Source: Chromatiales bacterium (lineage in GTDB: Bacteria > Pseudomonadota > Gammaproteobacteria > SZUA-152). From it: a DNA stretch of 37,284 bases. A program made the position numbers and the translations under genes. The notes under the pieces are model-generated. The model saw nothing but the letters and a program-made list of their open reading frames with translations. It was not told where the DNA came from and did no database searches. Shown here piece by piece: positions 1,049 to 11,396 of this stretch (position 1 is its first letter; each line of letters opens with the position of its first letter). The stretch is taken from positions 1-37,284 of the forward strand of contig JALSHB010000154.1 in assembly GCA_026982475.1 (NCBI GenBank), written 5' to 3'.

Positions 1049-1311
1049 GTTATCCTGATAAACCTACCCTCATCAATATGGGCAAGTCAATGACGGGGGG
1101 TGGCCGTTTTGCACATTTTTGCTATTTTTTTCGTGCTGTCGTGGAAATGCACATGAAGCATATTCTATTGGCATAGAAAATCATTTTGTCCTTTTTTATG
1201 CGGATTTGCTGAATCGCCTGCTGCGGTTGTGCTAGCGTGACCGATGCAAGTTTTTTTGCGAGGTGGTGGTACAAACATATACAAGTTATCTGAATGGTAG
1301 GGAGTTGGCTC

Positions 1312-2589
1312 ATGGTGAAAAAATCGGCGAAAAAGAATGCCTTTTATGCGCAGTCGGGTGGCGTGACGGCGGTGATCAACGCCAGCGCCTGCGGTGTGAT
1401 CGAGACCGCACGCAAGAACAAGGGTCGAATCGGCAAGGTCTACGCCGGCCGCAATGGCATCATCGGCGCATTGACCGAAGACCTCATCGATACCAGCAAG
1501 GAGTCGGCGCGCGTCATCGCCGCCCTGCGCCATACGCCATCCGGGGCGTTTGGCTCGTGCCGTTACAAGCTCAAGGGCCTGGAGGAAAACCGCGCCGAGT
1601 ATGAGCGCCTCATCGAGGTCTTCGAGGCGCACAATATCGGTTACTTCTTCTATAATGGCGGCGGTGATTCCGCCGATACCTGCTTGAAGATTTCACAGCT
1701 TTCCAAAACGCTGGGTTATCCTATCCAGGCCATCCATGTTCCCAAGACGGTGGATAACGATCTGCCAATTACTGACAATTGCCCCGGCTTTGGTTCGGTG
1801 GCGAAATATGTGGCGGTGTCGATCCGCGAGGCGGCCTTCGATGTGGCCTCGATGGCCAAGACCTCGACCAAGGTGTTCGTCATGGAGGTGATGGGACGGC
1901 ATGCGGGCTGGATTGCGGCGGCGGGTGGCCTGGCGGCGGAGAACGAGGGGGATGCGCCGCACATCATTCTTTTCCCGGAGGTGGTGTTCAACGAGCGCGC
2001 ATTCCTTGCCCGAGTAAAAGAGTCGGTCAATAAATATGGTTACTGCGCGATCGTGGTTTCCGAGGGGGTGCGTGACAGTAAAGGCAAGTTTCTTGCCGAG
2101 GCGGGGGGCGTGGATGCCTTTGGCCACGCCCAGCTGGGTGGCGTGGCGCCGGTGGTGGCGCGGATGATCCAGAAAAAGCTGGGCTACAAGTACCACTGGG
2201 CGGTGGCGGACTATCTGCAGCGCGCGGCGCGGCATATCGCCTCGAAGACCGATGTGGAGCAGGCCTACGCGGTGGGCAAGGCGGCGGTGGAGATGGCGCT
2301 GGCGGGCAAGAATTCCGTGATGCCGGCCATCAAGCGCACCGCCAACAAGCCCTACCGTTGGAAGATTGGCGAGGCGCGTCTGGCCAAGGTGGCGAATGTG
2401 GAAAAGATGCTGCCGAAGAATTACATCAGCAAGGACGGTTTTCACATCACCCAGCGTTGCCGCACCTATCTGCAGCCGTTGATCCAGGGTGAGGATTATC
2501 CGCCCTTCAAGAATGGCCTGCCGCAATACGTGAAGCTGAAAAATGTGGCGGTGAAAAAGAAGCTGGTGAAAGCCTTCAAGGTTGCCTGA
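1312..2589 (+). CDS. pfp: Pyrophosphate-dependent 6-phosphofructokinase
   Basis: MVKKSAKKNAFYAQSGGVTAVINASACGVIE...NGGGDSADTCLKIS...PKTVDNDLPITDNCPGFGSVAKY; PFK family with PPi-type motifs. Start 1312 or 1294. Confidence 0.9.
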   Translation: MVKKSAKKNAFYAQSGGVTAVINASACGVIETARKNKGRIGKVYAGRNGIIGALTEDLIDTSKESARVIAALRHTPSGAFGSCRYKLKGLEENRAEYERLIEVFEAHNIGYFFYNGGGDSADTCLKISQLSKTLGYPIQAIHVPKTVDNDLPITDNCPGFGSVAKYVAVSIREAAFDVASMAKTSTKVFVMEVMGRHAGWIAAAGGLAAENEGDAPHIILFPEVVFNERAFLARVKESVNKYGYCAIVVSEGVRDSKGKFLAEAGGVDAFGHAQLGGVAPVVARMIQKKLGYKYHWAVADYLQRAARHIASKTDVEQAYAVGKAAVEMALAGKNSVMPAIKRTANKPYRWKIGEARLAKVANVEKMLPKNYISKDGFHITQRCRTYLQPLIQGEDYPPFKNGLPQYVKLKNVAVKKKLVKAFKVA

Positions 2590-2929: not shown

Positions 2930-2969
2930 CTAGAAGTTCCTTGCACACCTCATCTGCGCTACAATCCGG

Positions 2970-3154
2970 CCACAACCAGTAGCGGAACTGGTCTGTGTAT
3001 GCTTGGGTGAAACAGGCAGCACGGATCGTATCGCTGGACAGCGTTCGTCCTGCCTTACGGAGCGAGGCCGGACGGCACCGCGCGATACCCTTGCAGATCA
3101 TCCGAGAGCATTGAGATTCGCTATCTGGAAAGGCCGACATGTCGGCCTTTTTTT
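2970..3154 (+). ncRNA. Candidate structured RNA of unknown family, ending at an intrinsic terminator
   Basis: -10-like TACAAT 2960-2965; ACCAGT/ACTGGT hairpin 2975-2992; GTATCGC (3028-3034) pairs with GCGATAC (3082-3088); GGAT (3023-3026) with ATCC (3100-3103); terminator 3129-3154. Confidence 0.45.
3129..3154 (+). terminator. Intrinsic terminator upstream of ppa
   Basis: AAAGGCCGACA/TGTCGGCCTTT perfect 11-bp palindromic stem followed by T tract. Confidence 0.85.
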
Positions 3155-3198
3155 GTTTGATTTGTAAATCGTTTTATTTCTCAGGAGAACAGAAAAGG

Positions 3199-3747
3199 AT
3201 GAGCCTCGACCGAGTCAGTTCCGGCAAAGATGTGCCCAACGACATCAATGTCATCATTGAAATCCCGTCCCACAGCGATCCGGTGAAATATGAAGTCGAT
3301 AAGGAAACCGGCGCCATGTTCGTCGACCGCTTCATGAACACCGCTATGTATTACCCCTGCAACTATGGTTACGTCCCTCACACCCTGTCCGAGGACGGCG
3401 ACCCGGTGGACGTGCTGGTGGTCACCCCCACGCCGCTGATCAGCGGTTCGGTGATCCGCTGCCGCCCGGTGGGCATGCTGAAGATGACCGACGAGTCCGG
3501 TATCGATGCCAAGATCCTCGCCGTGCCGGTGGACAAGCTGGCCGTGCAGTACCGTGGCGTGGAAAAGCTGGACGACCTGCCCCCCCTGCTACTGGAGCAG
3601 ATTGCCCATTTCTTTGCTCACTACAAGGATCTGGAGAGCAACAAGTGGGTAAAGATCGACGGCTGGGTAGGCACCGATGAGGCCAAGGCCGAAATCCTCG
3701 CCTCCGTGAAACGTTTCCAGACCGCCCCCGAGAAGCCCTGCTTCTGA
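3199..3747 (+). CDS. ppa: Inorganic pyrophosphatase (family I)
   Basis: [77 protein letters not shown]-like aggag upstream. Confidence 0.95.
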
Positions 3748-11087: not shown

Positions 11088-11100
11088 ATCTTCAATCTAG

Positions 11101-11202
11101 TACTCTTTCAAGGTAATAACACGGATTCAGCGTTCCTGTGGTGTTTCGCGGCAAGGCGCAGTGCGCAGGCAATGGCCGCCTCGTTATTACCTTGAAAGAG
11201 TA
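11101..11202. mobile_element. MITE-like non-autonomous element, copy 2 (about 102 bp), flanked by CTAG
   Basis: TACTCTTTCAAGGTAATAAC...GTTATTACCTTGAAAGAGTA; CTAG at 11097-11100 and 11203-11206; internal sequence shared with copy 1. Confidence 0.8.
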
Positions 11203-11396
11203 CTAGGGTCTTTTGCGGTGAATTGCACCACGGTGGTGGTGGAAATCCGCGGCAACCGGCCCCATTACCGATACAGGCTCTCCATTCGCGGCACAGGGAA
11301 GGCGATGGAGAGACGGGCAGGGGGCAGCCCTTTCGGCAATCCATGCCCCGCCCGCGTGGCGCGGGGCGGCTCATTCAATCGACAGGAGGTAGCATC

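Follow-up and report, generated by a model that had tools for sequence, protein, structure and literature searches.

The spacer between pfp and ppa in the window (the whole stretch of Chromatiales DNA that was analysed, 37,284 nt long) holds, in this order, a repeat insertion (2643-2933), a promoter, a non-coding RNA of ~180 nt, an intrinsic terminator, a Shine-Dalgarno sequence and the ATG of ppa (Table 1). The terminator stem occupies positions 3129-3150 and the T-run positions 3148-3154, with the ppa ATG 45 bp downstream at 3199. A preliminary description of the locus had reported ~185 nt without a convincing coding sequence between pfp and ppa, a TACAAT box resembling a -10 element and, 45 bp ahead of the ppa start, a perfect intrinsic terminator, and all of this stands: the box at 2960-2965 is part of a promoter found in all six congeners compared, the terminator lies where it was described, and a coding sequence in the RNA is ruled out, as the longest open reading frames do not align across species and the indels between species, which are not multiples of three, break the frame.

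Table 1. Features of the pfp-ppa spacer and its flanking genes (positions in the window).
Feature	Position	Strand	Evidence or remark
pfp, PPi-type phosphofructokinase	1294-2589		Pfam PF00365
-35-like element TTCCTT	2937..2942	+	17 bp before -10; TTYCTY in related genera; sequence and genus/family promoter alignment
-10 element TACAAT of the ppa/leader promoter	2960..2965	+	sequence; kept in 6/6 congeners and other family genera
Predicted leader RNA/short terminated transcript, ~183 nt	2972..3154	+	homologues in 6 congeneric genomes (alignment A1); covariance model R1 matches
Conserved closing stem, 5' strand (CCAG...)	2976..2986	+	pairs with 3117-3128; 88% of cells paired over six species
Three-codon mini-ORF, ATG NNN NNN stop (TAA/TGA)	2999..3010	+	same place in 6/6 species
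Apical hairpin GCCT-TACGGAGC-GAGGC	3052..3068	+	helix 5; loop consensus YAYGGAGCGA kept in alignment A1
Conserved closing stem, 3' strand	3117..3128	+	abuts terminator; alignment A1 and fold
Intrinsic terminator, perfect 9-10 bp stem AAAGGCCGA-CATG-TCGGCCTTT and T7	3129..3154	+	sequence; hairpin -14.0 kcal/mol
Shine-Dalgarno AGGAG of ppa	3183..3187	+	sequence; kept in congeners
ppa, inorganic pyrophosphatase, downstream gene	3199..3747	+	Pfam PF00719, E 1.4e-58

Some smaller features of the spacer can be set apart from the RNA itself. The repeat is a dispersed imperfect palindrome of MITE/REP-like type, which ends in CTCTTTCAAGGTAATAACACGG and has CTAG at its flanks; this genome carries some seven nearly complete copies as well as a broken one at 11096-11206, and every genome of the genus has many partial copies. 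The codons of the mini-ORF vary among the six species; it lacks a clear Shine-Dalgarno sequence and is too short for amino-acid-sensing attenuation, and its shared position may be a coincidence. In this genome, the terminator loop contains an ATG in frame with ppa that would lengthen the gene by 20 codons (3139-3198), an extension that is probably a coincidence too, since it is absent or different in the other congeners.

A nucleotide search recovered the locus from five congeneric genomes, and the DNA upstream of ppa was taken for every ppa in the family; the sequences are draft assemblies, mostly metagenome-derived. Promoter, RNA and terminator lie directly before ppa in each of the six congeneric genomes in which the region upstream of ppa is assembled, and the distance from the T-run to the ppa ATG is 34-46 nt. 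The six sequences were used to build a covariance model (R1), which was run on 57 genomes and gave one full copy per genome in the six congeners, none away from ppa in the 57 genomes, and a few weak partial matches in other genera, several of them at a hairpin before ppa. The seventh member of the genus (G001), whose contig ends inside ppa, was left out of the six, and the model gave no copy elsewhere in its genome. Among the 57 genomes searched, this RNA family is restricted to one genus and always tied to ppa. What lies upstream of it varies, from a divergent hppA (G003) and an hppA remnant (G005) to a dispersed-repeat insertion (G000) and bare pfp (the others), and since this neighbour changes while the RNA stays before ppa, the RNA travels with ppa. 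The gene hppA (a proton-pumping pyrophosphatase, named from sequence) is found in the pfp-ppa spacer as a divergent gene in G003 (L114) and as a 5' remnant in G005, which suggests that it was lost from the spacer in part of the genus.

The 218-nt stretch that covers promoter, RNA and terminator has a folding energy of -81.8 kcal/mol, compared with -70.3 +/- 4.6 for shuffled sequences (z -2.5). The six species share a fold in the form of a long, imperfect rod with CCAG/CUGG at its closed end and a conserved apical loop; the terminator follows the rod directly. In alignment A1, 82% of cells pair, against 35-43% with the partners slid, and 12 pairs are changed on both sides. Relative to column-shuffled alignments, the core, taken without the terminator, has an RNAalifold energy z of -2.85 with all six sequences and of -4.78 with the five that remain once the copy from the window, with its 14-nt insertion, is left out. 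Because the structure came from the same sequences on which it was tested, we also simulated 150 structure-free alignments along the fitted tree and passed them through the same pipeline. No simulated alignment came as high as the observed summed mean pairing probability (20.0 vs 8.7 +/- 1.8) or pair number (52 vs 40.1 +/- 4.7), and three did for double-change pairs (12 vs 5.9 +/- 2.5); the percentage paired is by itself unexceptional (23/150). With six sequences, a small number, as the basis of these statistics, the comparison indicates a shared RNA fold that is conserved beyond chance.

The preliminary description had proposed to look for covariation upstream of ppa; among the six species, pairs changed on both sides are present and more numerous than in nearly all tree simulations. 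Its list of helices fared unevenly: GTATCGC/GCGATAC is helix 4 of the conserved fold, ACCAGT/ACTGGT and TGCTTG/CAGGCA use bases and the 14-nt insertion that are private to this genome, and the conserved closing stem, a different pairing, was missing from it. Within the genus, identity amounts to 85% in the promoter, 92% in the terminator, 63% in the RNA core and 75% at fourfold sites in ppa, and the 150 bp upstream of the promoter, at 32%, are not alignable. The divergence of the core therefore roughly equals or exceeds that of fourfold-degenerate sites; besides the 5' strand and the apical loop, it has few invariant unpaired positions, it has other minimum-energy folds in two species.

The promoter, which has the form TTYCTY-17 bp-TACAAT/TATAAT, is also found before ppa in related genera without this RNA. 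Between the terminator and ppa, no second promoter fits, and there is no room for one. In G003, the leader promoter is preceded at a distance of 0.12 kb by the start of the divergent hppA, which leaves ppa without any other obvious promoter. As in a terminator-type leader, the RNA lies between promoter and start codon, on the same strand, in all six congeners, and an intrinsic terminator precedes the coding region. We favour the reading as a leader of ppa because the RNA stays with ppa, its promoter is that of ppa in genera without the RNA, and the gap from terminator to ppa is too small for another. Some other genera of the family (g6, G009 and G014) have a GGCC-rich hairpin or terminator between the ppa promoter and ppa, and the sequence preceding it is unrelated. 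The sister genus g6 (L015, L019, L021-L024) has a different, short ppa leader, in which a small hairpin of variable sequence (GCACAA/TTGTGC type) comes first, then a T-run and, ~100 nt ahead of the start codon, a GAGGGGCCGACATGTCGGCCCCTC hairpin that hardly varies. In other families, ppa mostly has a short, plain leader whose -10 box is a few tens of bases away from the ATG, so that attenuating leader control of ppa is not general.

Taken together, we regard the RNA as a 5' leader of ppa that acts as a transcription attenuator, with a probability of roughly 0.6; the folded RNA of ~180 bases is probably a built-in brake on ppa. RNA polymerase would start at the ppa promoter (predicted start site ~2972) and make an RNA that folds into the rod with its CCAG/CUGG closure. 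A large part of transcription would then stop at 3129-3154, in the intrinsic terminator, and yield a stable RNA of ~180 nt, and the fraction that reads through would become the ppa mRNA. A transcript from this promoter, its partial or regulated termination and an influence of the rod on termination are what we infer from this arrangement. Rod and terminator would coexist, with read-through either a fixed fraction or altered by a factor that acts on the polymerase, and the terminated ~180-nt RNA may also act in trans.

A leader that switches between terminator and antiterminator is not what the six species point to: no conserved antiterminator is predicted among them, and the 5' arm of the terminator has no conserved pairing with upstream sequence. 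When transcripts are cut before the 3' arm of the terminator, the 5' arm is, in five of the six species, either unpaired or engaged in no more than a small local hairpin. Closing stem and terminator adjoin without overlapping and can form together, as they would in a free-standing sRNA. A candidate antiterminator formed by the GGCC just after the -10 element and the terminator arm was rejected on inspection, its bases lying upstream of the inferred start and being mismatched in three species.

The preliminary description had offered either an sRNA or a 5' leader/riboswitch. A structured RNA of no known family is supported, and linkage to ppa, a shared ancestral ppa promoter and the lack of another promoter favour the leader or attenuator; the riboswitch part is unsupported, because there is no conserved antiterminator and the RNA is confined to one gene and one genus. 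An independent gene for a trans-acting sRNA, with its own promoter and terminator, whose rod or apical loop has other RNAs or a protein as its target and which leaves ppa to leaky read-through, is a possibility that we consider rather unlikely. It would account for a unit complete in itself (promoter, start-proximal closing stem, rod, strong terminator), for the lack of an antiterminator and for the conservation of apical loop and 5' strand, but not for an RNA that is never away from ppa in 57 genomes and is driven by what is the ppa promoter in genera without it; moreover, the loop GGA, which hints at CsrA binding, is lost in G006. A CsrA/RsmA sponge was rejected, as this GGA is not conserved (CGA in G006). 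Improbable, too, is a riboswitch through which a metabolite or ion (pyrophosphate, fluoride, Mg2+ or nucleotide) controls the terminator. A structured domain directly before a terminator, preceding a pyrophosphatase in a locus that also has pfp and, in relatives, hppA, would suit it; yet it meets no mutually exclusive antiterminator, a core with the divergence of silent sites or more and few invariant unpaired positions, a single copy before a single gene in a single genus where an aptamer shared by several genes or taxa would be expected, and no match to an Rfam riboswitch, fluoride included. The missing antiterminator counts mainly against the riboswitch, because an attenuator that works through a protein or through the polymerase needs none. 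Still less probable is the specific proposal that the rod is an aptamer, or an element modifying RNA polymerase, that senses pyrophosphate (PPi/Pi or Mg state) and thereby determines how much transcription continues into ppa; if true, it would be, to our knowledge, the first RNA sensor for pyrophosphate.

We give similarly little credence as to the riboswitch to the absence of any RNA function, that is, to a stable but unimportant transcript whose conservation reflects recent descent in a GC-rich spacer. The silent-site speed of the core and the two species that favour other minimum-energy folds agree with it, but the tree-based null was rejected, and promoter and terminator are strongly conserved next to upstream DNA that cannot be aligned. 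A known housekeeping RNA (6S, SRP or tmRNA), or a second 6S, has hardly any probability. The closed-end rod and a length near 180 nt are indeed those of 6S RNA (RF00013), but no Rfam model matches at its gathering threshold, 6S is unlisted even at E up to 5, and this genome has a separate, clear 6S gene on contig C63 (88.6 bits).

The Rfam search, one of the checks suggested at the outset, used 4227 models and covered the window at gathering thresholds, a relaxed local E-value scan and the five homologous loci. No family came above its gathering threshold in the window or in these loci, in agreement with the failure to match 6S, SRP, tmRNA or a riboswitch consensus by eye, and the relaxed matches were dismissed as weak chance matches to terminators or microRNAs. 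The fluoride (crcB) riboswitch (RF01734) can precede pyrophosphatase genes and is, like the RNA described here, a leader linked to pyrophosphatase in some bacteria, but it is much shorter and has a pseudoknot that is not seen here. Closer in kind are leader-derived RNAs. Rli51 of Listeria mpl, a 5'-UTR attenuator and sRNA, shares the long structured 5' UTR, the premature termination before the gene and the short RNA, but differs in phylum, gene and sequence; trans activity is reported for Rli51 and may occur here (PMC11394854). The sRNA derived from the 5' UTR of rhlI in Pseudomonas aeruginosa is likewise gammaproteobacterial and comes from the leader of the downstream gene, but gene and regulation differ, and no sequence relation is evident (PMC6786874). 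In the literature searched, we found no matching report of a ppa leader RNA, a ppa sRNA or a pyrophosphate riboswitch. The RNA family is new, with no entry in Rfam, while leader-derived terminated RNAs are as a kind already known.

Pyrophosphatase is essential in most bacteria and usually regarded as constitutive. A conserved structured leader and terminator before ppa, alongside a PPi-dependent phosphofructokinase and sometimes a PPi-driven proton pump, suggests that in this genus the output of ppa is tuned against the use of PPi.
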